Source of the DNA: Flavobacteriaceae bacterium
GTDB taxonomy: Bacteria > Bacteroidota > Bacteroidia > Flavobacteriales > Flavobacteriaceae
Direction of reading: 5' to 3'
DNA length: 39,409 nt
NCBI GenBank assembly: GCA_002697255.1
Contig: NZUH01000020.1
Span: 1 to 39,409 of the forward strand
The notes beneath the pieces are model-generated. The model saw only the letters and a program-made list of their open reading frames with translations, was not told where the DNA came from and did no database searches. Within the stretch, counting starts at the first letter, position 1. Each line of letters opens with the position of its first letter. Shown piece by piece: positions 3,959 to 37,419 of this stretch. The position numbers were made by a program, and so were the translations under genes.

Positions 3959-5398
3959 TTATTGATTTAGAAAAGGATCCTTATTTACATAATTTCTCAT
4001 TTCTTCTAATTTAATACTATATTTTTTAACCAACTCTTTATTTTCAGGTAGTTTTGAAATATCTATATTTTGCTTTTTATCATTTTTCATATCATACAGC
4101 ATATTGCCTAAATAGTTTTCACCCTCAACAAATTCAGTGTAAGAATAGTTATTATCGATAACTGCTTCACCCTGTTTATACCTCGTATAAATCTCGTCTT
4201 TTAATATCGTCTTTGGATTTTGAAGAACAGGCGTTAAGCTTTTTCCTTGTATAAAGTCAGGAGGATTAATACCTGCTAACTCACATAAAGTTGGATAAAT
4301 ATCAACCAATTCTGTAAATGAATCTGCAGAATCTTGGGCACTGAACTTTGGAGATGAAATAATGAGTGGGATTTGAATAGCTTCATAAAAAGTACTATGC
4401 TTACACCAGAAACCATGTTCGCCTAAAAAATATCCATGATCACTCCATAAAACAATTGTTGTATTTTCTCTAAGACCTGATTCTTCTAAGCCTTTAATTA
4501 GTTCTCCAATCATTGCATCCATATAGCTTACACTAGCATAATAACCATGAATTAGATCCCTGGATAATTTTTCATCCAGCAAACCTTCTGCAGTAATTCC
4601 AAGATAATTTTTTCTAAGCTCTGCTGAATTATGTTGTGCTTCAATCGCAATATAAGGGGAGTTTAATGGTTGGTATGTATTATTGGCCAGCTTAATACTG
4701 TCATGGTTATACATATCCCAATATTTTTTAGGTTGTATAAATGGTAGGTGGGGAGAAACATAGCCAATTGCCATAAAGAAAGGTTTCCCATTTTCACTAA
4801 ATTCTTTAAATTTCTCAATTGCTTTAAGGGTTATCTTCCCGTCATTATAAGAATAGTCATCAACTTCAGGATATTCAATAATGGGATTTTTTTTGCCGTA
4901 CTCACCAGTCTCAGCATTGTCTCTTAGCCTAATAGATTCAGGGTCCTGAAAATCTGCTTGATCAGCACCACTATCTTTTTCAGTCCAATGTCTCGCAAAA
5001 TCATCACTATGATGATATATTTTACCATACGAAATAGTTTCATATCCGTTTTCCATAAAAATTTGATTCAATGGAATCGCATTTGGGGCATCAACTGAGG
5101 CTCTTGTTGAAAAGTCATTAAATCTTTTCTCGCTAGGTCTTATGCCGGTCATAATACTTGCTCTACTAGCTCCACACACAGCTATGTTTGTAAAAGCATT
5201 ATTAAATTGTACGCCTTCTAATGCAAGCTTATCCATATAAGGAGTAATCATTTTCTCGTTCTCATAATTGTATGAATTAATAGTTGGTCTTAAATCATCA
5301 ATTGAAATGAAAAGGATATTATGTTTCCCCTCAACTTGATCATTGCATGATGTTATAAATATTGTCAAAATAATCGATAAAAAAAATTTCATTTTCAA
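3959..5398 (-). CDS. S1-type sulfatase, iduronate-2-sulfatase-like, lipoprotein
   Basis: This 479-residue sulfatase of the alkaline-phosphatase-like superfamily has a lipoprotein signal with Cys18 (FITSC). Metal ligands D34-D35 lie in ISIDDLRP. The formylglycine motif is C75-G-A-S-R79, a C-x-A-x-R form rather than the classical C-x-P-x-R. A second metal/substrate block SDHG (D320, H321) is followed by LGEHGFWCKHS with K333 and H334. The LGEHG...K block resembles iduronate-2-sulfatase-type S1 enzymes. It should remove sulfate esters from a polysaccharide or oligosaccharide in the periplasm or at the outer membrane, after Cys75 is converted to formylglycine by a maturase not found in this window. 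It lies 1 bp downstream of the next sulfatase gene. The exact sulfate position is unknown. Confidence 0.93.
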   Translation of the reverse strand: MKMKFFLSIILTIFITSCNDQVEGKHNILFISIDDLRPTINSYNYENEKMITPYMDKLALEGVQFNNAFTNIAVCGASRASIMTGIRPSEKRFNDFSTRASVDAPNAIPLNQIFMENGYETISYGKIYHHSDDFARHWTEKDSGADQADFQDPESIRLRDNAETGEYGKKNPIIEYPEVDDYSYNDGKITLKAIEKFKEFSENGKPFFMAIGYVSPHLPFIQPKKYWDMYNHDSIKLANNTYQPLNSPYIAIEAQHNSAELRKNYLGITAEGLLDEKLSRDLIHGYYASVSYMDAMIGELIKGLEESGLRENTTIVLWSDHGYFLGEHGFWCKHSTFYEAIQIPLIISSPKFSAQDSADSFTELVDIYPTLCELAGINPPDFIQGKSLTPVLQNPKTILKDEIYTRYKQGEAVIDNNYSYTEFVEGENYLGNMLYDMKNDKKQNIDISKLPENKELVKKYSIKLEEMRNYVNKDPFLNQ

Positions 5399-5399
5399 T

Positions 5400-7046
5400 T
5401 TAATTTGAGGTTATATCTGAAGCTTTATAGCCAATTCTAATTGCCCTTGCAACAATTTTTTTATTGTCTGGAATGATAATTGGTTGATGGTATAAATCCC
5501 AACTTTTACTTCCTATTTTTTCATCTATTTGATAACCTATTGATGCCCCATTAGTTAATGAAGTTAATTCATATAAGCCACTTCCAGTAATATTAAACTC
5601 AACATTATTAGTTTTAGGCTGAATCATATTAGGCCAAAATAATCGAACAATTTCATTCTCAGGCTTAAATCCTTGATCATTTATTTTAAGCTGCCAGTGA
5701 GCTAAAGCGTTTCTAAAATCATTTATTCTTTGAGAATGTTCTGGATTGTTAATAATATTGTTTACTTCATATGGATCATTATGCAAATCATAAAATTCCT
5801 CTATAGGTTTTGATTTCATAAATATATATGCAGCATCCCCGTCTAGCTTTCCTTTAGAATCCATCTCAATTAACTTTGAATTCATTGTAATTCTTTCCCT
5901 GTAATTATTACGATATATCAAAGGCAATTCTGGCATAAAGTTTTTAATATAGACATATCTACCGTCTAATACTGATCTTTGCATGTCGGTACTTTCGTCA
6001 AATCTGTCTGCAGTTCCAAATGCATATTTCCTGGGCTCTTTTTCAAATTTTCCCGCAATTGCTTTTCCGTCAAAATGATCTGGTGATTCAATATTTAATA
6101 AAGATAATACTGTAGGTCCTAAATCCATTAGAGAAACAATCCTATCATCAACTTTACCTGCATTTTGCTTATTAGGATACCTAATGATTAGAGGAACATT
6201 AAGGCCGCTATTTCCTACAGCTCTTTTTTGCCTCAGCAAGTTCCCCCCATGGTCGCTCCAAAACATAATTATAGTGTTTCCCAATAGTCCATCCTCTTCT
6301 AGTTGATTTATTAACTCACCAACTTTCTTATCCATAGCTTCAATATTAGAGTATTTTCTTGCAATATCATTTCTAACTTCTGGAATATCTGGGAAATAAG
6401 ATGGTATTATAACATCTTCAGGAAGTACTGTTAACGGTTCATTTTTTCTTTCCCAAATTCTGGATTCATGTGTTAAAAGAGTATTCCAAACATAAAAAAA
6501 TGGTTTGTCTTTTGGGGCATCTCTAAAACTTACCGTTGAAGATACTTCATCCCAAGCAGTAAACGGTGCATTAAATTGGTAATCACATTTAAAATTATTG
6601 GCACAATAATAACCTTCTTTTCTTAAAATCTCAGTGAATGGTTTCACATATTCCGGAGTCACAACTTCATATTCTGGAATATTTTTTCCAGCTTTATCTA
6701 AAACACCAATATTTGATCTATAAGTTACCTCTTCAGGTGTTTTGTAGTTATGATAGTCTCCGGTTCTCATATTATGAGCTCCTAGTCTGGCTGAATACAT
6801 CCCAGTTATAATTGAAAATCTACTCGGTGCACAAACTCCAGCTGTTGAGTAAGCATTTGTATACCTGACACCTTCTGCAGCAAGTTTATCTAAATTAGGG
6901 GTCTTAATTCTGTCATTACCGTAGGATCCTAATATAGGGCCCATATCTTCACAACTTATCCACACCACATTAAGCGGTTTTTGAGAAGTTTTTGAACAGG
7001 AATATGTCAATAAAAAAACTAGTATTATAATTCTTAAATTCAACAT
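5400..7046 (-). CDS. S1-type sulfatase, N-sulfoglucosamine-sulfohydrolase-like, lipoprotein
   Basis: I chose ATG 7046-7044, which begins MLNLRIIILVFLLTYSC and gives a good lipobox at Cys17. It starts one base after the TAA of the upstream sulfatase gene. An ATG at 7076 would add ten residues and spoil the signal peptide. The protein has 548 residues. E33-D34 (in ISCEDMGP) are metal ligands, C72-A-P-S-R76 is the formylglycine motif, and FWSDHGG carries the second metal pair. The ISCEDMGP/GVCAPSR pattern resembles heparan N-sulfatase-type S1 enzymes, but marine relatives act on many glycans. The last ~65 residues (from about ITGSGLYELTSLTNG) look like a small beta-sandwich of the chitobiase C-terminal type. 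It is the second of three adjacent sulfatase genes. Confidence 0.92.
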   Translation of the reverse strand: MLNLRIIILVFLLTYSCSKTSQKPLNVVWISCEDMGPILGSYGNDRIKTPNLDKLAAEGVRYTNAYSTAGVCAPSRFSIITGMYSARLGAHNMRTGDYHNYKTPEEVTYRSNIGVLDKAGKNIPEYEVVTPEYVKPFTEILRKEGYYCANNFKCDYQFNAPFTAWDEVSSTVSFRDAPKDKPFFYVWNTLLTHESRIWERKNEPLTVLPEDVIIPSYFPDIPEVRNDIARKYSNIEAMDKKVGELINQLEEDGLLGNTIIMFWSDHGGNLLRQKRAVGNSGLNVPLIIRYPNKQNAGKVDDRIVSLMDLGPTVLSLLNIESPDHFDGKAIAGKFEKEPRKYAFGTADRFDESTDMQRSVLDGRYVYIKNFMPELPLIYRNNYRERITMNSKLIEMDSKGKLDGDAAYIFMKSKPIEEFYDLHNDPYEVNNIINNPEHSQRINDFRNALAHWQLKINDQGFKPENEIVRLFWPNMIQPKTNNVEFNITGSGLYELTSLTNGASIGYQIDEKIGSKSWDLYHQPIIIPDNKKIVARAIRIGYKASDITSN

Positions 7047-7047
7047 T

Positions 7048-8466
7048 TTAGTAGTGAAGTTTAACGTAGTCATCATCCTTTAATTTTCCTAATAAATCAT
7101 CTGGAACTGTGTTCCACTTAGAACTTTTATCTAAGGGGTGCAAAGTAGGTTTTATGACCGATATCGGATTTTCCAAAATAAAATCTTCTTGTGCTAACAT
7201 CCAATTCTCCAAAGCGATAGACAATCGATTTCTGATATTTTTATATTTATTATCATTAATCAAATTTATTTTTTGGTATGGATCCTTCTCTAAATCATAT
7301 AATTCCTCATAAGGAATATTTGGAAAAGATTCTGCTCCAATTTTAGCAAAACTATTTACAAAAGGATTATCACCCAAATTAGAATCAAAAACCTCAATTG
7401 AATTAAAATTTCTGATTAATTTAAACCTTTTTTCTCTTACCATTCTTGAAGGGAATATTTTACACTCCCTTATATTTTGTTTTGTTGCCACCCCAAAAAC
7501 ATATTCGTTGATTTCTTCATCAGAACCCAATAAGGTCTTTACAAAACTTTTTCCATCAATATCCTTAGGGATTTTTGTTTTAGAAACCTCTAATAAGGTT
7601 GGAAGAACATCAACAAGTGTAAGTAGAGTGTTTGATGTTGAATTTGGTTTAATTTTTCCAGGCCATCTTACCACAAATGGAACCTGAAGGCCCTGTTCAG
7701 ACAAGCCCCACTTACCACTCAACCCATGATCTGAAGCATAAATAAACATTGAGTTTTCATTATGGCCATAGTTGTCAACCATATTTAAAACCTCACCTAA
7801 CTGATCATTATCATCTTTAATATTTTGATAATATCCTGGCTTGTGATTACCCATATATGAGGGGTCATAGGGTAATTTATATATGTCTTTTTTTGTATAA
7901 TTTAATGTTTTTGGAAATGGGCCATGAGGATAGTCAGAAGCAATTATTAAACAAAAAGGTTTTTTAACATTTTTTAAATAGTCGTCGATTTTTGCTAAAG
8001 GTAAAAATCTATTTTCTAGCTTAGGAAAGTAGTGAGTCCAATTAAAAACCTTATTTGGCTTTACATGGCTTTTACCTGCCAGCACAACTTCATAACCTGA
8101 TTCTTTAAGTAATGATGTTATACTTTTAATATTAGGCTTTACCCCTATGTGATTGGCCATACAGCCATTTTTTACCGGATACATGCCTGTGAAAATTTGG
8201 GATCTACTTGGGGCGCATATTGCTTGTCCAGTATAAAAATTTTCAAATTTAATTCCTTGCTTTACTAACAAGTCAACATTTGAAGTTTCTACATTTGGAT
8301 TGCCATATGAGCCATAATCCAACCTATCTTGATCATCTGCTAAATAAAATATAATATTTGGTCTCAAAGAGTTTGCTTTCTGAGAATATTCAGATTTTTC
8401 AAGAAGACTGGTTAACAGTAAGACAGAAAAAAATATTATAAAATAAGCCGATCTTTTTAAAATCAT
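7048..8466 (-). CDS. S1-type sulfatase, secreted or membrane-anchored
   Basis: The protein has 472 residues. An N-terminal hydrophobic stretch (8-22) lacks a clear lipobox cysteine, so it is a Sec signal or anchor. Metal ligands D44-D45 lie in YLADDQDRLDYGSYGNP, C84-A-P-S-R88 is the formylglycine motif, and a DHGLSGKWGLSEQGLQVPFVVRWPG-type block (read as DHG followed by QVPFVVRWPG) closes the active site. The start codon overlaps the GH30 stop as ATGA (8463-8466), so translation is probably coupled. It should desulfate the locus glycan after maturation. Sequence divergence from the two neighbouring sulfatases suggests different sulfate positions rather than recent duplication. Confidence 0.92.
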   Translation of the reverse strand: MILKRSAYFIIFFSVLLLTSLLEKSEYSQKANSLRPNIIFYLADDQDRLDYGSYGNPNVETSNVDLLVKQGIKFENFYTGQAICAPSRSQIFTGMYPVKNGCMANHIGVKPNIKSITSLLKESGYEVVLAGKSHVKPNKVFNWTHYFPKLENRFLPLAKIDDYLKNVKKPFCLIIASDYPHGPFPKTLNYTKKDIYKLPYDPSYMGNHKPGYYQNIKDDNDQLGEVLNMVDNYGHNENSMFIYASDHGLSGKWGLSEQGLQVPFVVRWPGKIKPNSTSNTLLTLVDVLPTLLEVSKTKIPKDIDGKSFVKTLLGSDEEINEYVFGVATKQNIRECKIFPSRMVREKRFKLIRNFNSIEVFDSNLGDNPFVNSFAKIGAESFPNIPYEELYDLEKDPYQKINLINDNKYKNIRNRLSIALENWMLAQEDFILENPISVIKPTLHPLDKSSKWNTVPDDLLGKLKDDDYVKLHY

Positions 8467-27764: not shown

Positions 27765-28832
27765 ATGAAAAAGTTAATAAGCTTATTATTATTATTATTT
27801 ATACTCGGTGGCAGTTGTTCAGATGAGCCTTACGAAATATTAGAGTTTTCGCCTGTAAATTATAATATAGAAGATATGCCTTACGTGAGCCTATCTGAAT
27901 ACAATTTTTTTGAAGGTGAACTGAAAAATTTAACCCCTGTATATGGCGTAATACCTTACGAATTGATAAGTTCACTTTTTACAGATTATTCCATTAAAAA
28001 CAGATTCCTTTGGATGCCAGATGGGGCATCAGCTAACTACATTTCAAGCTCTTCAGTTTTTGATTTTCCTGTTGGCACAATTTTAATAAAGAATTTCTCT
28101 TACGACAATGTTTTACCGGATCTTGAAAGAAAAAACATTGAAACAAGGTTAATGATAAAGAAAGAGTCTGGTTGGATTTTTGCAGATTACATCTGGAATG
28201 AAGATCAAACAGAGGCCTTATTTAGCCTTGATGGAAATATCGTAAATATTAACTGGCTTCAAAACGGAACTGAAAGAAATATAAATTATAGAATCCCAAG
28301 TGCTAGTGAATGCTTAACTTGTCATAAAATTTCTGATGGTGCAATTCCAAATGGGGTAAAGCCAAGAAATATATATAAAACTTTGGATTACAACAGCTCA
28401 TCAATGAACCAACTTGATAAATGGATGGAAATGGGATATTTAAATTCATATCCTGAAAATCTTGAGGCTGTTGCTAATTGGAAAGACTTGTCTGAGCCTC
28501 TTGAAAAAAGGGTCAGATCATATATTGATATAAATTGTGCTCATTGCCACTCTGACAATACGCATTGTGAATATCGACCAATAAGATTAAGCTATGAGGC
28601 TACTGAAGACCTTGCAAATATGGGGGTCTGTTTAACCCCTGACACAAACCTTGGAAATGGAACAGATTTGATAATCAATCCCGGAAATATTAATAGGTCA
28701 GTGCTTCATTTCAGAATGAACAGCAATGAAGAAGAGTATAGAATGCCTTTAATCGGCAGAAGCATAGTACACGAAGAAGCAATAGAGATGATTGAACAAT
28801 GGATTAGCTCTTTAGAAAATAATTGTAACTAA
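27765..28832 (+). CDS. Diheme c-type cytochrome lipoprotein, SO2930-like
   Basis: The 355-residue lipoprotein (lipobox GGSC18, then SDEP) has two heme-binding motifs, C183-L-T-C186-H187 and C258-A-H-C261-H262, and a likely distal Met327 in YRMPLIG. The N-terminal ~180 residues form a beta-rich domain with ILIKNF, RNIETRLMI-like and GWIFADYIWNED blocks, as in the SO2930-type diheme family. It should transfer electrons in the periplasm or at the outer membrane. The next gene starts 10 bp after its stop and encodes a surface FG-GAP/ASPIC protein, which suggests a functional pair. Confidence 0.85.
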   Translation: MKKLISLLLLLFILGGSCSDEPYEILEFSPVNYNIEDMPYVSLSEYNFFEGELKNLTPVYGVIPYELISSLFTDYSIKNRFLWMPDGASANYISSSSVFDFPVGTILIKNFSYDNVLPDLERKNIETRLMIKKESGWIFADYIWNEDQTEALFSLDGNIVNINWLQNGTERNINYRIPSASECLTCHKISDGAIPNGVKPRNIYKTLDYNSSSMNQLDKWMEMGYLNSYPENLEAVANWKDLSEPLEKRVRSYIDINCAHCHSDNTHCEYRPIRLSYEATEDLANMGVCLTPDTNLGNGTDLIINPGNINRSVLHFRMNSNEEEYRMPLIGRSIVHEEAIEMIEQWISSLENNCN

Positions 28833-28842
28833 ACATAAGAAT

Positions 28843-30957
28843 ATGAAAAAAATATTATTCCTTTTAATAATTGGCTTACTTGTAACCCTAAATACATACT
28901 CTCAATCTGGAGATTCATGTAACAATGCAACACAAATAACAGCGGGAACTTACAGTGTTGACGGAATTAGCGGAGAGTCATTTGACCTAAACTGTACTGA
29001 GTATGATGCTGCAAATGGAAGCCTATTATGGTATTCTTATACGGCATCTCAAGACTACTTAATTACTGTTTCAACTGATTATGCAATCAATGACAACCTT
29101 GATACTAGATTTCATGTTTATCAGGGAGATTGTGAAAATTTAGCGTGTGCGGGCGGAGATGATGATAGTGGAGATGGTTATCTTTCCTATAGTTCCTTTT
29201 ATGCCGATGCTGGGAGTACATACTATATTGCATGGGATGATAGGTGGGGAGATGAAAATTTTGAGTTTACTGTAGAAGAAAATGATCCACCACCACCACC
29301 GCCTTTTGAATTTACTCAAGTAAATGTGAACTCTATTGGTTCTGAAAGAGGCATGGTTGATATGAATGGAGATGGTTTAGACGATCTTGTTTCAGTTCAA
29401 TCAACCAATATTAACCTTTTAATTCAAACAGAGGAGGGTGGATTTGAAGAAGTAAATATATCAACGGATCAGGCTAACTACACGCCTTCATGGAGTATGG
29501 CTGCTGGAGATTTCGACAGAAATGGGTATAATGATTTACTTTATGGTGGGGGAAGCGGTGTTACTTTTATGAAAGCAAATGATAACGGAACCGGATACAC
29601 AGAAATTTCTGGAAACGAGTATGTTTTCTCACAAAGATCAAACTTTGTAGATATTAATAATGACGGTCATCTAGACGCTTTCGTTTGTCATGATGTTCAG
29701 CCTACAGTTTATTACATTAACGACGGAAACGGAAATTTACAGTTTTTTCAAGGCCCTGATGAAGACGGTGTTCCTTCTGGTATAGGAGGTGTTGAATTAA
29801 GTTTAGCTCCTATAGGAAGTGCCCAAGAAGGAGGAAATTATGGGTCAGTCTGGATTGATTTTGATAATGACAGAGACATAGACATGTTCATTGCTAAGTG
29901 TAGAGGAGGAAATGTTCAGTGGAAAAACAATGAGCTTTGGAGAAATAACGGAGATGGAACTTTTTCTAATATTGCAGATGTTACGGGATGGTATAATTCT
30001 TATTACCCTGACGGTGGTCATGATAATAGTTCCAATTTAGGAGATCCTGTTCAAACATGGTCATCTGCTTGGGGAGACTTTGATAACGACGGATATATGG
30101 ATGTTTATGTAGGTGCTAGCGCTACCGGGGACGGTGGACATAAACTAATGCAGAATAACGGTGACGGAACATTTAGTGATAGAACAAATGGATCAGGCTT
30201 AAGTGAAGCTAACTATGGAATTGAAAACGATTCTGGAGATTTTAATAATGATGGATTTGTTGATATTCTTTCAAACGGCAGTATTCTGTTAAACAATGGT
30301 GATTTTACTTTTACTATTTATAACCAAAATACGCCTGGCCCGGGAGCTATAGGAGACGCAAATAATGACGGATTTTTAGATGTGTTCAATGGGAGTAATT
30401 TATATCAAAATAATCCTAACGGAAATAATTGGCTAAAAGTTATTACCATAGGTACTACCTCAAACATTAATGGAATTGGGGCTCGAGTCGAAATTTCATC
30501 CCCTGGGATTGGAACTCAAATCAGAGATGTTAGAAGCGGTACAGGTTTTAGATATATGGGAAGTCTTAATACGTATTTTGGGCTTGGACAAGATACAATG
30601 GTCGACACAATAACAATTTACTGGCCATCCGGTACTATTGATGTTTTAAATAATGTAAATATTAATTCAACGTTAACCGTAATTGAAGGTCAAACACTTT
30701 CAGTAAGCTCATTGGAGCTAAGTGAAATTAATATTTATCCAAACCCCGCTGATGATTTTATCACTATTGATACAATAAACAGTTTAGAAGGGGCAATCAT
30801 AAGCATATTTGATATTAACGGAAGAAGAGTTTTAAATTATAAGCAAAATGCTAACTCAAATAAAGTTGATGTTTCCAGTCTAAGTATTGGTGAGTATATA
30901 ATAAGGGTTGTAACAGCTGACGGGTTGATGGCCTCTAAAAAACTTATAAAAAAATAA
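28843..30957 (+). CDS. FG-GAP/ASPIC-UnbV repeat protein with T9SS tail
   Basis: The 704-residue surface protein has a signal peptide (1-20), a PPC-like N-terminal beta-sandwich (about 22-145) and a Pro-rich linker (PPPPPP near 150). FG-GAP/VCBS-type Ca-binding repeats run from about 155 to 520 (D-x-N-x-D-G blocks; RNNGDGTFSN). An ASPIC/UnbV domain follows (IGARVEI, QIRDVRSGTGF, FGLGQ, ITIYWPSG), then a type A T9SS tail (IYPNPADDFITID). Such repeats form beta-propellers binding calcium; the ASPIC domain often occurs near cytochromes, but its role is unknown. It ends just before a strong terminator. Confidence 0.88.
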   Translation: MKKILFLLIIGLLVTLNTYSQSGDSCNNATQITAGTYSVDGISGESFDLNCTEYDAANGSLLWYSYTASQDYLITVSTDYAINDNLDTRFHVYQGDCENLACAGGDDDSGDGYLSYSSFYADAGSTYYIAWDDRWGDENFEFTVEENDPPPPPPFEFTQVNVNSIGSERGMVDMNGDGLDDLVSVQSTNINLLIQTEEGGFEEVNISTDQANYTPSWSMAAGDFDRNGYNDLLYGGGSGVTFMKANDNGTGYTEISGNEYVFSQRSNFVDINNDGHLDAFVCHDVQPTVYYINDGNGNLQFFQGPDEDGVPSGIGGVELSLAPIGSAQEGGNYGSVWIDFDNDRDIDMFIAKCRGGNVQWKNNELWRNNGDGTFSNIADVTGWYNSYYPDGGHDNSSNLGDPVQTWSSAWGDFDNDGYMDVYVGASATGDGGHKLMQNNGDGTFSDRTNGSGLSEANYGIENDSGDFNNDGFVDILSNGSILLNNGDFTFTIYNQNTPGPGAIGDANNDGFLDVFNGSNLYQNNPNGNNWLKVITIGTTSNINGIGARVEISSPGIGTQIRDVRSGTGFRYMGSLNTYFGLGQDTMVDTITIYWPSGTIDVLNNVNINSTLTVIEGQTLSVSSLELSEINIYPNPADDFITIDTINSLEGAIISIFDINGRRVLNYKQNANSNKVDVSSLSIGEYIIRVVTADGLMASKKLIKK

Positions 30958-30977: not shown

Positions 30978-31007
30978 AAAAAAGACCGTCAAACGACGGT
31001 CTTTTTT
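30978..31007 (+). terminator. Intrinsic terminator after the ASPIC gene
   Basis: A perfect 13-bp stem (AAAAAAGACCGTC / GACGGTCTTTTTT) with loop AAAC, ending in a T-run. It lies 20 bases after the stop and separates the cytochrome pair from the CotH cluster. The A-run on the other arm would let it work on both strands. Confidence 0.93.
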
Positions 31008-31076: not shown

Positions 31077-32501
31077 ATGACACTTTTCAAAAATATATTT
31101 AAAATTATACTTATTCTATTACTGGTGCTCGTTTCATGTTCTAAAGATGATGATTTGGTGGAAGTAAATAATGATGATAATTCTGATAACAATTCTGACA
31201 ATAGTGGTTTAGACATTGCTGACTGGTCAATAGAAACCCATAGTAATGATGTTGACCCAAACTATGCAGAAGTATATGATGATAACAATTTGGTTAGACG
31301 AATAGATCTTGTGTTTGACCCTAAAGATTGGGAGCTTATGCTTGAAGACATGTCAGGATTATATGGAACCTTTGGCCAAGGTGGTGGTGGCCCCGGAGGA
31401 GGTGGCGGAGGTTTTGCAGATGAAAATCCAATTTTTAGACCGGCTAAAGTGTTTTACAATGGTGTTGAGTGGTATAAAGTTGGCGCCAGATTTAAGGGCA
31501 ATTCAAGCTTATCTTTTTCTTGGAGAAATGGAGTTTGGAAAATGTCCTTTAAACTTGATTTTGACGAATTTGAAGACGAATTCCCTGAAATTGAGAATCA
31601 AAGATTTTATGGTTTCAAACAGTTAAGTTTAAAAAATAATTTTGACGATGAGTCTCAACTAAGAGAAAAAGTTGCATCAGATATTTTTAGAGAATCTGGA
31701 ATTCCTTCACCTAGAACACAATTCTACGAAGTTTTCGTTGATCATGGGTCTGGCCCTGTATACTTCGGCCTGTATACAATGGTTGAAGAGCCAGATGACT
31801 CTCTTATAAAATCTCAGTTTAGCAATAATGATGGAAATTTGTATAAGCCTGATGGGAATGGCGCTACGTTTTCCAATGGAAGCTTTAATCAAAATCATTT
31901 CATTAAACAGACAAATGAAAATGAGGCTGATTGGACAGACATCCAATCAATTTTCTCTATCCTACACAGCGAAAATAGAAATACAAACCCAGAAGAATGG
32001 AGGAACAATCTAGAATCTGTTTTTAACGTTGAAGGATTTTTAAATTATCTGGCAGTAAACACGGTAATACAAAATTGGGATACCTATGGAAGAATGACTC
32101 ATAATTATTATTTATATGGAAATCCGGATAATGATTATAAATTAACTTGGATTCCTTGGGACAACAACGAAAGCTTGCGGCTTGGTAAAATGGGTGGATC
32201 GCTGCCTTTAAATTTTAACGGAGTTGGGAATAATTGGCCTCTAATCAGGTATTTATATAATGACCCTGTATACCGCGGCGTATATGATGAATATGTGTCA
32301 AGTGTAATTGTGGGGGCTTTTGAAACGTCACACATACAGTCTGTTTATTCACAGTATTCAAATCTTATAGAGTCTTCAGTTATAAATGAATTAGAAGGGT
32401 ATACTTTTTTAGAAACACCTGGAGATTTTCAAGCTGCTGTATCCATACTTAATAATCATGCCCAAAACAGATCAAACGCGGTTAATAACTATTTAAATTA
32501 A
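31077..32501 (+). CDS. CotH-type kinase-like lipoprotein
   Basis: The 474-residue protein has a lipobox at Cys21 (LVLVSC) followed by SKDDD and an N/D/S-rich linker to about residue 45. The CotH-family domain covers about 75-400: the Gly-rich loop (101-112), GARFKGNSS, FDEFEDE, RFYGFKQLSLKNNF, LREKVASDIFRESGIP, PVYFGLYTMVEEPDD and LTWIPWDNNESL. CotH of Bacillus phosphorylates spore-coat proteins using ATP; many bacterial homologues have no known function, and how an outer-surface lipoprotein would get ATP is unclear. It starts a cluster of four lipoproteins; the YHYH gene follows in five bases. The usual VTC/DUF4956 partners of CotH are absent here. Confidence 0.88.
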   Translation: MTLFKNIFKIILILLLVLVSCSKDDDLVEVNNDDNSDNNSDNSGLDIADWSIETHSNDVDPNYAEVYDDNNLVRRIDLVFDPKDWELMLEDMSGLYGTFGQGGGGPGGGGGGFADENPIFRPAKVFYNGVEWYKVGARFKGNSSLSFSWRNGVWKMSFKLDFDEFEDEFPEIENQRFYGFKQLSLKNNFDDESQLREKVASDIFRESGIPSPRTQFYEVFVDHGSGPVYFGLYTMVEEPDDSLIKSQFSNNDGNLYKPDGNGATFSNGSFNQNHFIKQTNENEADWTDIQSIFSILHSENRNTNPEEWRNNLESVFNVEGFLNYLAVNTVIQNWDTYGRMTHNYYLYGNPDNDYKLTWIPWDNNESLRLGKMGGSLPLNFNGVGNNWPLIRYLYNDPVYRGVYDEYVSSVIVGAFETSHIQSVYSQYSNLIESSVINELEGYTFLETPGDFQAAVSILNNHAQNRSNAVNNYLN

Positions 32502-32506
32502 ACACT

Positions 32507-33337
32507 ATGAGAACTACATTATTTTATGTTTTGACATTATTAGTATTCACTTTTTCATGCAATAATGATGATATTGAATCAAATAATGAGTCTAATAACA
32601 CTGATAACAATGACAACTCAGACAATAATGATGAGTCTGCGCTAGTCCCATTTGAATTTTATGAGCTAATATATGGTGTGACATCAGAAATAACATCTGA
32701 TGAAAATTGGGTTTATATAAATACCAATGCAATGCCTGATCATGTCAGTCCCTACTATCTAGGAACACAATGGGAGAACAGTTTATATCAGCCTTATGAT
32801 GGGTCTAATCCATTTGTGTCAAACTTTCATTTGAACCCAAATAGAATCTCTGAGCTAGATATGTCTTTTAAAATTCCTAGACATCCTGAACAGTCTACAG
32901 ATAATCATCCTACCTCAATGGGGCCTATAGGAGTTTCCCTGAATGGTGTCCCCTTCTACAATCAATATGCTGGGGGTGGAGCCGCTTTAACACAAGAAAT
33001 AAATTCGTTTGATCAATTTAACGGACATCCTGCGCCAATGGGGCCAGGCCAAGAAAATGGATCAAGCGGTAAATATCATTATCATATGGAGCCATTTTGG
33101 CTTACACTTAACGCAAGCAAAGAAGCTTTAATTGGATTTTTATTAGATGGATTTCCAGTTTATGGACCTGAAGAAAATAGTCAAATAATTAATTCTTCAG
33201 ATTTAGATGCGTTTCATGGTCATTTTCACGCAAATGATGATTTCCCTGAAGGGATTTATCACTATCACGTGACCTCAGATGACCCTTATATAAATGGAAG
33301 TGGATATTATGGTTCGCCAGGTACAGTTACTGAGTAG
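32507..33337 (+). CDS. YHYH-domain lipoprotein, histidine-rich
   Basis: The 276-residue lipoprotein has Cys18 (FTFSC) and an N/D/E/S-only linker (residues about 19-44). The YHYH domain covers about 60-270, with two YHYH motifs (190-193 and 251-254), FHGHFH (236-241) and FLLDGFPVYGP between them. Repeated histidines suggest metal binding, but no ligand set is proven in this family. It starts five bases after the CotH stop, and the MORN gene start lies inside its end. The adjacent SCO1-like copper chaperone makes copper a reasonable guess only. Confidence 0.87.
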   Translation: MRTTLFYVLTLLVFTFSCNNDDIESNNESNNTDNNDNSDNNDESALVPFEFYELIYGVTSEITSDENWVYINTNAMPDHVSPYYLGTQWENSLYQPYDGSNPFVSNFHLNPNRISELDMSFKIPRHPEQSTDNHPTSMGPIGVSLNGVPFYNQYAGGGAALTQEINSFDQFNGHPAPMGPGQENGSSGKYHYHMEPFWLTLNASKEALIGFLLDGFPVYGPEENSQIINSSDLDAFHGHFHANDDFPEGIYHYHVTSDDPYINGSGYYGSPGTVTE

Positions 33338-33881
33338 GGCTTGCATTGCTTTAGTCTTGGGGTTTTCTTGCAATAATCTTGTCCAATATCCCCATGTTTT
33401 AAAAAGCTCAAAGGAGGTTAATACATTTAACAAGCTAGTTAAATATAAAGGAGAGGTTTTCACTGGCTATTTATATGAAATGTATCCAGAATCCAAAGAT
33501 ACCATGTTTGTAAATTTTTACAATGCGGGGGAAAAAGATGGAGTTTGGAGAAAGCTTTACCCTTCAGGAAAATTAAAAGAAATTCGATATTATAAAAAAG
33601 GTATAAAGGAGGGGAAATATATTGGGTTTTTTAGAAATGGAAATAAATCATTTGAATATAATTTTAGAAACGGGGAGTATAACGGGGAGTATAAAGTTTG
33701 GAGAGCTGATAAAATGCTATTAAGAGTTTCTAATTATAAAAACGGGTATGAGCATGGCCAACAAAAAATATGGTACCCCGATGGGAGAATAAAGTCAAAT
33801 TATATTATTAAAAATGGTAGAAGGTATGGTCTACTTGGAATTAAAAATTGTATAAATGTATCGGATAGTATTATTAACTAA
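33309..33881 (+). CDS. MORN-repeat lipoprotein
   Basis: From ATG 33309 the 190-residue protein begins MVRQVQLLSRACIALVLGFSC, a plausible lipoprotein signal; ATG 33294 is an alternative with five more residues. About four MORN-variant repeats follow (GVWRKLYPSGKLKEIRYYKKG, EGKYIGFFRNGNKSFEYNFRNG, GEYKVWRADK, GQQKIWYPDGRIKSNYIIKNG; each shorter than 21 residues when split). Such repeats also appear in proteins annotated as YwqK-family antitoxins, but no toxin gene is adjacent. The start overlaps the YHYH gene by 29 bp, and its end overlaps the SCO1 gene by 26 bp, so the cluster is translationally packed. Its role is unknown. Confidence 0.75.
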   Translation: MVRQVQLLSRACIALVLGFSCNNLVQYPHVLKSSKEVNTFNKLVKYKGEVFTGYLYEMYPESKDTMFVNFYNAGEKDGVWRKLYPSGKLKEIRYYKKGIKEGKYIGFFRNGNKSFEYNFRNGEYNGEYKVWRADKMLLRVSNYKNGYEHGQQKIWYPDGRIKSNYIIKNGRRYGLLGIKNCINVSDSIIN

Positions 33882-34485
33882 TTTATTGTTTGTTTTTGCT
33901 TGCTACGAAGAGCATAAAATACCCTATTACAACAACGCTGATTTTAGCCCTCTTTTTGTTTCAAATAAAAGTGATGTTGATAATATTATAACTCATAAAA
34001 TTGGTGACTTTTCATTTGTAGATCAAAACAAAAAAGTAATCTCACAGAATGACATTGAGAAGAAAATTCACATTGCTAATTTTATTTTTACTTCTTGTAC
34101 AAGTATCTGTCCTAGTATGACAAATAATATGAAAATAGTTGATAGTGCTTTTCACAATAATTCAAGGGTAAAAATTTTATCCTATAGTGTTACTCCTTGG
34201 ATTGATACTCCAGATCGATTTAAAAGTTATACCAAAGAATACAATATATCGTCTGAAAATTGGCATTTTTTAACCGGTAGCAAAAACGATATCTATAAAC
34301 TTGCGCGCGAATCTTACTTTGCTGAGAAGAGCTTGGGTTTTTCTAGGGACAGCACCGATTTTCTGCATACAGAGTTTTTTATCCTTGTTGACGGAAATAA
34401 AAGAATCCGAGGTGTTTATAACGGAACTTTGAAGCTAGAAGCATTGCAGGCTGTAGAAGATATAAAAGAGTTGCTGAATAATTAA
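33856..34485 (+). CDS. SCO1/SenC-family copper chaperone lipoprotein
   Basis: The 209-residue lipoprotein (lipobox VFAC16) has a thioredoxin-like fold. The copper ligands are C81-x-x-x-C85 (TSCTSICP) and H171 (LHTEFFILVDG), all conserved. SCO proteins deliver copper to, or reduce, the CuA site of cytochrome oxidase; others serve in redox defence. ATG 33856 lies within the MORN gene. The stop TAA (34483-34485) shares TTAA with the convergent saccharopine-dehydrogenase gene. No cox genes are nearby, so it may serve the CotH-YHYH cluster. Confidence 0.93.
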   Translation: MYRIVLLTNLLFVFACYEEHKIPYYNNADFSPLFVSNKSDVDNIITHKIGDFSFVDQNKKVISQNDIEKKIHIANFIFTSCTSICPSMTNNMKIVDSAFHNNSRVKILSYSVTPWIDTPDRFKSYTKEYNISSENWHFLTGSKNDIYKLARESYFAEKSLGFSRDSTDFLHTEFFILVDGNKRIRGVYNGTLKLEALQAVEDIKELLNN

Positions 34486-35591
34486 TACTTGTCTACTTTA
34501 TAAATGACATTTCTTTCTCTTAAATACTCGTTAATTTCATTAAAATGGCTGCCTAAAAATTCGGGCGGTGATATTCCTTTTTTAGAAAATTTATTTTGCA
34601 AAACAAGATTTGCAACTGCTGTACATGTAAATCCTGTTGTTCTAGCCATAGAAATTGTATTTTCTTGATAACGATCTAAGAGCGTATACTTATATAATCT
34701 TTTTTTGTCGTTTTCTAAACCTGAAATTTTAATTCTCATAATTGTAAAATCTTCATCGCCTTCTTTCATTTCCCATTTTGGGAATAATAGCTTAGATGTT
34801 AAATCGATTGGCCTTACTTTATTTCCATTTATAGTTATAGGATCGTAGGAAAAATATCCACATTCACGCAAAACTTTTAAATATTCTACACAGCCCGGAT
34901 ACCTTAACGTCTTTTCAATCATATTAGGGACATGATTCATTGTTTCGATTAAAGTTCTTAGCCCGTCAGAGTTCCAACTTTCTAGAGTTCCAATTTCATC
35001 AAATTCAACTAGCTCGGTATCTGAAAGAGCCTCCTTAATGACCAAAGATTTATTTTGAACATATCTAGCTGGGCGTATGTATTCTTCAATCACATCAATA
35101 GGAGAAAAAACAGCCTGATATTCAAAGGGCCATTCTCTTTTCTTGGGCAATCCCCCAACTAAACATTCGTAATTATGAATTTTCATCAAATTATCATGAT
35201 GGGCAAAAATAATATTTCCCATCCCTGGTGCTACTCCACAGTCCATGACAGCTGTTACGTTATTTTCTTTTGCTAACTGATCTAATTTAAAAGGGTCTTC
35301 AGGATAAAAAGAAATATCAACAATGTTTTTTTTTGCTTTTATGACATTTTTCATTGTCTCAAACCCCATAAAACCTGGAAGTGCGCCAACAACTAAATCA
35401 AAGTCCTTGATTAAATTCTGTAAAACTTTTACATCTGAAACATCTAACGATTTTTTTGTAATATTTGAAGCTTGAAGCTTGTCTAAATTTTTGCTCGAAA
35501 TATCTACAGAGGTTACATTATGACTTTTAGAAAGATCTTCAGCCATAACTCTTCCAACTAAACCACAACCTAAAACAACAATTTTTTTCAT
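34482..35591 (-). CDS. Saccharopine dehydrogenase-family oxidoreductase
   Basis: From ATG 35591 the 369-residue protein begins MKKIVVLGCGLVGRVMAEDL, an N-terminal Rossmann fold with GxGxxG. An ATG at 35600 would overlap the accC stop. The C-terminal saccharopine-dehydrogenase domain has DCGVAPGMGNIIFAHH and TGFTCTAVANLVLQ. Members act on amino-acid or glutamate adducts with NAD(P); the substrate here is not known. The start is one base after accC, so it is the last gene of an accB-accC-this run. The stop shares TTAA with the convergent SCO1 gene. Confidence 0.88.
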   Translation of the reverse strand: MKKIVVLGCGLVGRVMAEDLSKSHNVTSVDISSKNLDKLQASNITKKSLDVSDVKVLQNLIKDFDLVVGALPGFMGFETMKNVIKAKKNIVDISFYPEDPFKLDQLAKENNVTAVMDCGVAPGMGNIIFAHHDNLMKIHNYECLVGGLPKKREWPFEYQAVFSPIDVIEEYIRPARYVQNKSLVIKEALSDTELVEFDEIGTLESWNSDGLRTLIETMNHVPNMIEKTLRYPGCVEYLKVLRECGYFSYDPITINGNKVRPIDLTSKLLFPKWEMKEGDEDFTIMRIKISGLENDKKRLYKYTLLDRYQENTISMARTTGFTCTAVANLVLQNKFSKKGISPPEFLGSHFNEINEYLRERNVIYKVDKY

Positions 35592-35592
35592 A

Positions 35593-36933
35593 CTAGTCAT
35601 CCATTGAAAAATCTTCCATAAATTTAGTGGTATAGTTTCCTTCTAAATAAGCCTCACTATCCATTAATTTTCTATGAAAAGGAATTGTTGTTTTGATGCC
35701 ATCAATAACAAATTCATCCAAGGCTCTTTTCATTTTATTAATAGCCTCATCCCTAGTTTGAGCCGTTGTTATTAACTTGGCAATCATAGAATCATAGTTA
35801 GGCGGAATTGTATACCCTGAATAAACATGTGTGTCAATTCTAATCCCGTGGCCACCTGGTAAATGAAGATTTGTAATTTTTCCAGGTGAAGGTCTAAAAT
35901 TATTGTAAGGGTCCTCAGCATTAATTCTACATTCAATCGAGTGTAGTTGCGGTAAATAATTCTTCCCTGAAATTTTTTCGCCTGAAGCAACTAAAATTTG
36001 TTCCCTGATCAAATCATAATCAATAACCTGTTCTGTAATTGGGTGTTCCACTTGTATTCTAGTGTTCATTTCCATAAAATAAAAATTTCTGTTCTTGTCC
36101 ACCAAGAATTCCACCGTTCCAACACCTTCATATTTTATATATTCTGCTGCCTTAACAGCTGCCTTACCCATTTTCTCTCTAAGCTTATCTGTCATAAATG
36201 GTGAGGGAACCTCCTCTGTTAATTTTTGATGTCTTCTTTGAATTGAACAATCCCTTTCTGAAAGATGACACGCTCTTCCCTTTGAATCTCCAACAATTTG
36301 AATTTCAATATGCCTAGGCTCCTCAATTAATTTTTCCATATACATGTCGTCATTGGCAAATGCTGCTTTTGATTCAACTCTAGCTGAATTCCAGGCATCC
36401 TCTAATTTGGATTCATCCCAAACCGCTCTCATTCCTTTACCGCCTCCACCGGCGCTGGCTTTTAACATCACTGGATATCCAACTTGTTTAGCGAGTTTTT
36501 TGCAGTGATCGAATGATTCAATGATTCCTTCACTTCCCGGAACACATGGGACTCCTGCTTCAATCATAGTTGCTTTGGCCGTAGCCTTATCCCCCATTTT
36601 ATTTATCATTTCGGCAGATGCGCCAATAAACTTGATTCCGTGTTCTTGACAAATTTTTGAAAACTTAGCATTTTCTGAAAGGAATCCGTAACCAGGGTGA
36701 ATACCGTCAGCATTTGTAATTTCAGCGGCAGCGATAATATTAGAAATTTTTAAATATGAGTCAGAGCTTGGCGCAGGGCCAATACAAACTGCTTCATCAG
36801 CAAATTTAACATGTATGCTTTCAGCATCAGCTGTAGAATAAACCGCAACGGTTTGAATCCCCATCTCTTTACAGGTTCTAATAACACGTAAAGCAATTTC
36901 ACCTCTATTGGCAATTAATATCTTTTTAAACAT
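35593..36933 (-). CDS. accC: Acetyl-CoA carboxylase biotin carboxylase subunit
   Basis: The 446-residue ATP-grasp enzyme carboxylates biotin on AccB with bicarbonate and ATP for malonyl-CoA synthesis. Blocks are [67 protein letters not shown] and [15 protein letters not shown]. Length and motifs are complete. It starts 12 bp after accB and ends one base before the next gene, so it is a bicistronic or tricistronic message. Confidence 0.97.
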
Positions 36934-36945
36934 AATAAATTTAAA

Positions 36946-37419
36946 TTAAGAAGGGTCAACTAAAAATAAAGGCTGGTCGAATTCAACGGGGCTGCTATCT
37001 TCAACTAAAATTTTAACAATTTTACCTGAGACTTCGGATTCTATATCATTAAAAAGCTTCATGGCTTCAATAACACAAAGAACAGAGCCCTCAGAAATAG
37101 AGTCTCCAACCTCAACAAAGACTGGCTTATCAGGAGATGGTTTTCGGTAAAAGGTCCCAATGATTGGAGAGTTAACAGTAATATATTTAGAATCTTCAGA
37201 AGCATCTTCAGCCTCTTGTGAAACAACAGGTTGAGCGGACACAATTGGAGGCGCCGTGGGTACTTGTTGAGGAACAACAACGGGCTCATGCATAATCACC
37301 TGCTGGTTGCCATCACTAGTTTTAATAGTGATTTTAACATCTTCCATCTCAAGCTTAACTTCGCTAGCACCAGATTTTGCAACAAATTTAATCAGGTTTT
37401 GAATTTCTTTTAATTTCAT
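36946..37419 (-). CDS. accB: Biotin carboxyl carrier protein of acetyl-CoA carboxylase
   Basis: The 157-residue protein carries biotin on K121 in EAMKL and presents it to AccC and the carboxyltransferase. An N-terminal helical region (1-40) and a Pro/Val/Gln-rich linker (42-70) lead to the biotinyl domain (about 80-157), which includes VNSPIIGTFYRKPSPDKP. Leu rather than Met follows the biotin lysine, common in this phylum. It is first in the acc operon and follows an unusual AT-rich intergenic region. Confidence 0.96.
   Translation of the reverse strand: MKLKEIQNLIKFVAKSGASEVKLEMEDVKITIKTSDGNQQVIMHEPVVVPQQVPTAPPIVSAQPVVSQEAEDASEDSKYITVNSPIIGTFYRKPSPDKPVFVEVGDSISEGSVLCVIEAMKLFNDIESEVSGKIVKILVEDSSPVEFDQPLFLVDPS

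Follow-up and report, generated by a model that had tools for sequence, protein, structure and literature searches.

Which of the four successive lipoprotein genes on contig NZUH01000020.1 form a unit, and what that unit may do in the cell envelope, is the question raised by this window, a stretch of 39,409 nucleotides from a Flavobacteriaceae bacterium (assembly GCA_002697255.1) that lies on contig 15 of a 1.5-Mb assembly, 84% complete. The genes code for a CotH-family kinase, a His-rich YHYH protein, a MORN-repeat protein and a member of the SCO1/SenC family (Table 1). A preliminary description of this DNA had read them as four lipoprotein genes in succession, 5, -29 and -26 bases apart, that belong to a single system. 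The first part of this reading is borne out by the open reading frames, the Pfam matches and a lipobox cysteine in all four proteins, and the distances hold when the MORN start is taken at 33309. The second part had to be revised, since the conserved core comprises only YHYH, MORN and SCO1, to which CotH is an optional addition. No paper on a CotH/YHYH/MORN/SCO1 grouping was found in a literature search that lay mostly outside subscription journals and bioRxiv.

Conservation of the YHYH-MORN-SCO1 triad

When the GTDB species set was scanned, 524 candidates came up; the best 80 of them, ranked by similarity to the window, were analysed with flanks of at most 10 kb, many of them ended by contig edges. 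The complete triad, in fixed order and on one strand, is present in 73 of these 80 loci and SCO1 is in place in 76, with MORN and SCO1 called by profiles that were built from the first loci and that a diverged MORN gene may escape. Among the seven loci without a complete triad, L070 and L096 run into a contig edge, and L079, L090 and L094 have SCO1 without a called MORN gene. Within the order, PF14240 was detected in 38 of 296 genomes, with proteins of about 250-290 amino acids standing out as a distinct compact class, and YHYH, MORN and SCO1 follow one another in 14 of the 17 regions around compact-type matches; L045 has YHYH and SCO1 with no MORN called, and L041 and L044 hold other YHYH proteins without MORN or SCO1. 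Flavobacteriaceae genomes that have YHYH and lack the window type of CotH carry the full triad in 18 of 20 loci and SCO1 in all 20, these being the first 20 of 42 such genomes and including two duplicate records of the 80-locus set (L206 and L223) as well as one locus, L216, with a larger CotH-like gene. The locus sets overlap accordingly (L033 = L105, L075 = L206 and L068 = L223).

Loci around long YHYH proteins served as a control. Neither SCO1 nor MORN lies within about 1.5 kb of the long YHYH gene in any of 26 such loci (three of them shortened by contig ends, two without a YHYH frame by profile, and one, L018 of genome G256, with a triad SCO1 just past the 1.5-kb flank), whereas all four compact YHYH loci taken at the same size have both. 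Long YHYH proteins lack SCO1 close by, so a particular need for it seems to distinguish the compact class. The gene arrangement is far from chance, and the unit to be explained is YHYH-MORN-SCO1. Within the window's genus, just 3 of 21 genomes have a strong match to compact YHYH. Carriers of the triad include Echinicola pacifica (L118) and Spirosoma panaciterrae (L139), and tandem double triads occur within a single locus in L113, L138 and L164, Hymenobacter and Pontibacter being among the genera involved.

The SCO1, YHYH and MORN proteins

The SCO1 protein of the window scores 85.6 bits against PF02630 (cutoff 22.8) and matches structures 4hde (6.5e-21) and 1on4, Sco1 (1.3e-20), in the PDB. 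The preliminary description had regarded its copper ligands as intact, and indeed the CxxxC motif (C81, C85) and the distal His171 are present, each of the three residues being kept in 94 of 97 SCO1 rows, a set that includes two frames from L157, a locus without YHYH. Three SCO1 genes were found in the window genome. One of them, on contig C12, lies beside COX3, DUF420 and a UbiA-family prenyltransferase, neighbours that identify it as the oxidase type. In a tree of 51 rows, two of them identical, all 31 triad SCO1s form one clade (support 98/94), apart from both the oxidase type and a third type; the window protein falls in the triad clade and not in the oxidase-type clade, and its gene does not adjoin oxidase assembly genes. 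The tree holds 20 of the 76 triad SCO1s from the best 80 loci, and 9 of 40 SCO1 places, one of them a triad member, had no locus and were left out. Gene neighbourhood follows the same division, with DUF420 adjoining 9 of 11 oxidase-type SCO1 genes and both MORN and YHYH adjoining all 11 triad SCO1s checked, the window included. The window SCO1 shares its family, its CxxxC and His ligands and its lipoprotein anchoring with the SCO1/SenC proteins that serve cuproproteins in cytochrome oxidase assembly, but it belongs to a separate clade, sits beside YHYH and MORN instead of DUF420 or COX genes, and its presumed client is no known cuproprotein. Judged by its ligands, it would bind copper and deliver it. 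The third SCO1 type (C13:59958-60536, L175) lies beside a PF10634 Fe2+-transport protein. The notion that each SCO1 paralogue sits beside a cuproprotein of its own was rejected, as none of eight relatives of the C13 gene has a PF10634 neighbour in loci of 3.4 kb.

The PF14240 match of the compact YHYH protein is split in two and scores 79.4 bits (cutoff 25). Six histidines (H79, H174, H191, H193, H252 and H254) are present in every row of two alignments, of 17 and 64 rows, and H239 in 17 of 17 and 63 of 64, so that seven invariant or nearly invariant histidines are shared by two sub-groups; D214 is conserved as well. The larger alignment is made up of the window protein plus 63 of the 80 from the best loci; the second sub-group, about 27% identical to the window, is in the other alignment and is scarce among the 80. 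AlphaFold2 gave a confident model (pLDDT 87.4, pTM 0.80). Foldseek found no PDB fold match for this model (best E 2), a VIA alignment against 118 chains gave no match that reached a Z of 2, and sequence searches of the PDB gave nothing real. NCBIfam, applied to 64 members, provided no useful name, no family matching more than one of them. YHYH proteins occur in many Bacteroidota and in phages, and the accessible part of one study lists PF14240 among families prevalent in diatoms (PMC11992049); in the literature searched we found no experimentally tested YHYH function. With SCO1 as its constant partner, the compact class would probably have copper as its metal. Long YHYH proteins were also seen paired with a protein of about 210 amino acids (L046, 8790-10506; L044, 8320-9975; L124, 8189-9188), directly before the triad in L046 and L124 and with no Pfam match for the partner in L046, which makes a second YHYH pair possible.

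The MORN protein was modelled with a pLDDT of 92.1 as a beta sheet of repeated hairpins resembling known MORN structures, MORN4 (6jle) being its best Foldseek match (1.8e-4). A cysteine near its C-terminus, Cys181, is conserved in 90% or more of the 52 rows. The protein is likely to be a scaffold or docking piece that faces the periplasm.

CotH, topology and genomic context

The CotH protein scores 229.9 bits against PF08757 (cutoff 23.8) and matches spore coat protein H in the PDB (5jd9, 7e-12). Its residues D335 and D362, found in 31 of 31 and 29 of 31 rows of the subfamily (a gene of L172 broken by stops excluded), align with aspartates of this B. cereus-type CotH and, judged by spacing and motif, would correspond to D228 and D251 of B. 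subtilis CotH, which the available text of PMC7821199 gives as catalytic. The window protein thus resembles the CotB/CotG/CotH spore-coat phosphorylation module described there in its kinase family and in both aspartates, and differs from it in its gene partners. CotH most likely acts as a protein kinase on surface proteins, probably those of the module itself.

In a sample of 299 genomes, assigned to the Flavobacteriaceae by way of named contigs that match and the only sample in which this CotH subfamily was seen, 28 genomes have the window type of CotH and 66 have compact YHYH; one stop each interrupts three of the YHYH places. Compact YHYH accompanies CotH in 24 of these 28 genomes and occurs in 42 of the 271 without it (Fisher p 4e-14); counted by genus, the figures are 21 of 24 and 34 of 212 (p 2e-12). 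CotH and YHYH lie within a few kb of each other in 16 of the 24 sharing genomes, far above expectation. These Fisher and binomial values count every genome as an independent case, and the expected linkage was calculated for a 3.5-Mb genome. The co-conservation that the preliminary description had proposed to look for holds for CotH and YHYH as it does for the triad. The 28 genomes include G467, the CotH gene of which (L172, about 9097) carries three stops and was called alongside EF-hand, YHYH, MORN and SCO1 genes. Together with G119, G256, G304 and G313 they make up a set of 32 CotH loci that is biased towards linkage, because these four loci entered it through YHYH. Gene order varies by genus (EF-CotH-YHYH-MORN-SCO1, CotH-EF-YHYH2-YHYH-MORN-SCO1 and YHYH-MORN-SCO1-CotH-YHYH2-VTC-DUF4956, where EF stands for an EF-hand gene, among others), and second YHYH proteins lie near the triad in some CotH loci. 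Given this co-occurrence and linkage, with orders that differ among genera, CotH is coupled to the triad and yet can be lost or moved; L068 (= L223) and L069, for instance, have the order DIHEME-ASPIC-YHYH-MORN-SCO1 without CotH. Random combination of the four families, which the preliminary description had named as an outcome that would refute its reading, does not describe these clusters, although G304, G313, L068 and L069 are real exceptions to the full set.

VTC and DUF4956, the better known partners of CotH, had been noted as missing here. Both are indeed absent from the locus and no VTC gene was found in the whole assembly, an absence made uncertain by its 84% completeness, but one DUF4956 copy lies elsewhere (C13:82878-83225). 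These partners do not mark a rival setting, however: in 8 of 28 loci retrieved through CotH alone, a CotH gene of this subfamily has VTC and/or DUF4956 as neighbours, and CotH, VTC, DUF4956 and the triad meet in two loci, L168 and L039, the latter found by YHYH. According to the accessible part of PMC7112168, CotH-PPP(VTC)-DUF4956-DUF4832 accessory clusters are known at Gram-positive pel loci; these share the kinase family, and some relatives of the window CotH likewise sit with VTC, DUF4956 and DUF2490, whereas the window genome has no VTC that we could find, has the YHYH triad as partner and encodes lipoproteins of a Gram-negative envelope. Extracellular polyphosphate supplied by VTC as a donor for CotH was dropped as a general answer, with VTC in only 8 of 32 genomes that have this CotH and none found in the window genome.

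The residues that follow the lipidated cysteine bear on the side of the membrane at which each protein is expected. They are SKDDD in CotH, NNDDI in YHYH, NNLVQ in MORN and YEEHK in SCO1, and the CotH sequence C-S-K-D-D-D fits the optimal surface-export form C-X-K-(D/E)2 given in the available text of PMC5080379. In YHYH, acidic residues stand at comparable positions, and MORN has none; SCO1 is acidic in the window and less so across its family. Between +2 and +6, the average number of acidic residues is 1.66 for CotH (29 rows), 1.39 for YHYH (93), 0.77 for MORN (65) and 0.60 for SCO1 (82), in alignments where the lipobox finder sets the cysteine wrongly in some rows. By this pattern, CotH and YHYH are predicted to be outside, and MORN and SCO1 inside.

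Upstream of CotH, a terminator-like hairpin (stem GACCGTC/GACGGTC, lengthened by A-T pairs) was read directly and is absent from the pattern-scan listing; its position suggests that CotH may be the first gene of the transcription unit. The two genes before it, a diheme cytochrome and an FG-GAP/ASPIC type IX cargo, are lineage-specific neighbours outside the core, and the same pair lies upstream of YHYH in L060, L069 and L068 (= L223).

Table 1. Features of the window at and around the triad
Feature	Position	Strand	Basis and remarks
CotH-family lipoprotein kinase, 474 aa	31077..32501	+	PF08757 7e-68; predicted outer-membrane, surface-facing
Compact YHYH lipoprotein, 276 aa	32507..33337	+	PF14240 4.5e-22; candidate copper protein
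MORN-repeat lipoprotein, 190 aa	33309..33881 (start 33309 or 33294)	+	PF07661 MORN_2 4e-9; likely scaffold, periplasm-facing
SCO1/SenC lipoprotein, 209 aa, YHYH-linked clade	33856..34485	+	PF02630 SCO1-SenC 4e-24
Terminator-like hairpin between ASPIC gene and CotH	about 30978..31007	.	direct sequence reading
Diheme cytochrome lipoprotein, upstream	27765..28832	+	TIGR03806 297.9 bits, just below cutoff 313.3
FG-GAP/ASPIC protein, type IX secretion tail	28843..30957	+	PF13517 5.5e-35, PF07593 6e-17, Por_Secre_tail 4.8e-14

Farther away, three consecutive genes on the minus strand (3959-8466) match the sulfatase profile, and next to them long frames continue on that strand as far as 15394; this may be a polysaccharide-use cluster. 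Within 34482-37419, also on the minus strand, a saccharopine-dehydrogenase-like gene lies beside two genes that we take to be biotin-carboxylase-like and biotin-carrier-like, an order repeated in L060.

Proposed copper loading and its alternatives

The reading that we prefer, and to which we would give slightly less than an even chance, is that of an envelope YHYH protein loaded with copper by an SCO1 of its own, with MORN as scaffold and CotH phosphorylating the surface proteins of the module. The locus would represent, in reduced form, an envelope module of Bacteroidota, the core of which consists of compact YHYH, a MORN-sheet lipoprotein and an SCO1 paralogue from a clade that appears here only beside YHYH. 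On the periplasmic side, SCO1 would most likely give copper to the His-rich YHYH protein, or set the redox state for its metal loading, with the MORN protein as a scaffold or docking element. Once loaded with copper, YHYH would then act at the outer membrane, probably on its surface side. CotH, joined to the core in this genome, would be a lipoprotein kinase at the surface, and its most likely targets are the surface proteins of the module itself, EF-hand proteins among them where present. Copper as the metal, the direction of transfer, the enzyme activity, the topology and the CotH substrates all belong to this conditional part of the account; gene order, co-conservation, the separate SCO1 clade, the active-site residues of SCO1 and CotH, the lipoboxes and the invariant histidines are observed. 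The copper-linked envelope system put forward as a working hypothesis in the preliminary description is still the best reading, and the idea of copper has been strengthened.

Several observations weigh against it. Two of the best 80 loci, L080 and L147, lack both MORN and SCO1, and the long YHYH proteins have no adjoining SCO1. Within the window's own genus, G304 and G313 (assemblies 71% and 65% complete) keep CotH and YHYH with no MORN and only other SCO1 types found, which suggests that YHYH may work without these partners. CotH was seen in none of the best 80 YHYH loci, and it is unlinked to YHYH in 8 of the 24 genomes that have both. Moreover, SCO proteins can serve as thiol reductases.

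The last point leads to the alternative that survives best, which we nonetheless consider improbable: YHYH may be a zinc-dependent envelope hydrolase and SCO1 a thiol-disulfide reductase for MORN or another partner, in place of a copper chaperone. The nearly invariant Cys181 of the MORN family would suit such a reductase. A 2021 comparative study, as far as its available text goes, predicts that the YHYH domains of phages have a Zn site and work as hydrolases (PMC7824862), and a Foldseek search of viral models gave seven matches to the YHYH model at E of 0.001 or less (best 7e-11), five of them named YHYH/YhyH and two nameless. A phage sequence search gave weak matches only, in 48 Synechococcus phage records, the 15 listed being about 25% identical. 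The window protein shares the PF14240 family with the phage-tail domains and matches viral YHYH models in fold, but it belongs to a class of compact lipoproteins that have SCO1 and MORN as partners, a class whose apparent need for SCO1 is not shared by long YHYH proteins; and a pure reductase need not keep His171, which the SCO1 rows retain in all but three cases.

Less probable again is a metal-stress module, in which YHYH would be a surface sink or buffer for copper handed over by SCO1, switched on in some species by a CnrX-like sensor and a sigma factor, with no catalysis. Besides VTC-DUF4956, small EF-hand proteins, a second YHYH, a sulfatase or a DUF2490 protein, some species add a sigma/Spy-like set, and a Spy/CnrX-like gene was found in 13 of 32 CotH loci and in 14 of 80 YHYH loci, with sigma genes nearby; the His-rich nature of YHYH is in keeping with a buffer. 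CnrYXH-type metal sensing is a known system for comparison: in relatives of the window, a sigma gene, a small gene presumed to encode an anti-sigma factor (without a Pfam match) and a Spy/CnrX-like gene lie next to one another upstream. The Spy/CnrX-like protein matches PF13801 Metal_resist in 9 of 15 cases, which counts in favour of the copper reading as well, but its PDB profile match is to the Spy family (4.6e-6), nearer Spy than CnrX, so that general envelope stress fits as well as metal, a point that tells against the copper reading too. Other relatives have a histidine kinase/LytTR pair as a possible regulator. Our own profiles detected no Spy-like sensor, histidine kinase/LytTR or EF-hand gene in the window, and the invariant single residues and compact, confident fold of YHYH resemble an active site more than a sponge. 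To our knowledge, EF-hand, sulfatase and CotH partners are atypical of metal resistance. Finally, that triad and CotH are two independent modules, merely adjacent and without shared function, seems the least likely of all, for although CotH is missing from the best YHYH loci, is at times unlinked, and close relatives lose either CotH or parts of the triad, their co-occurrence and linkage far exceed expectation and recur in varied gene orders across genera.

Within the copper reading, a bolder version takes compact YHYH for a copper enzyme of a new class, whose fold is absent from the PDB. Its own SCO1 and a MORN scaffold would mature it, and at the cell surface it would act with the CotH kinase and calcium-binding partners on the envelope or on polymers outside the cell. 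We hold this version to be unlikely, if less so than the zinc hydrolase, and we rate the module as an SCO1 with a new kind of client and a real chance of such an enzyme class. With an SCO1 paralogue dedicated to it, YHYH has both a candidate metal and a candidate partner. If the reading is correct, the clients of SCO1 would extend beyond respiration, and CotH kinases would gain a setting at the Gram-negative cell surface.

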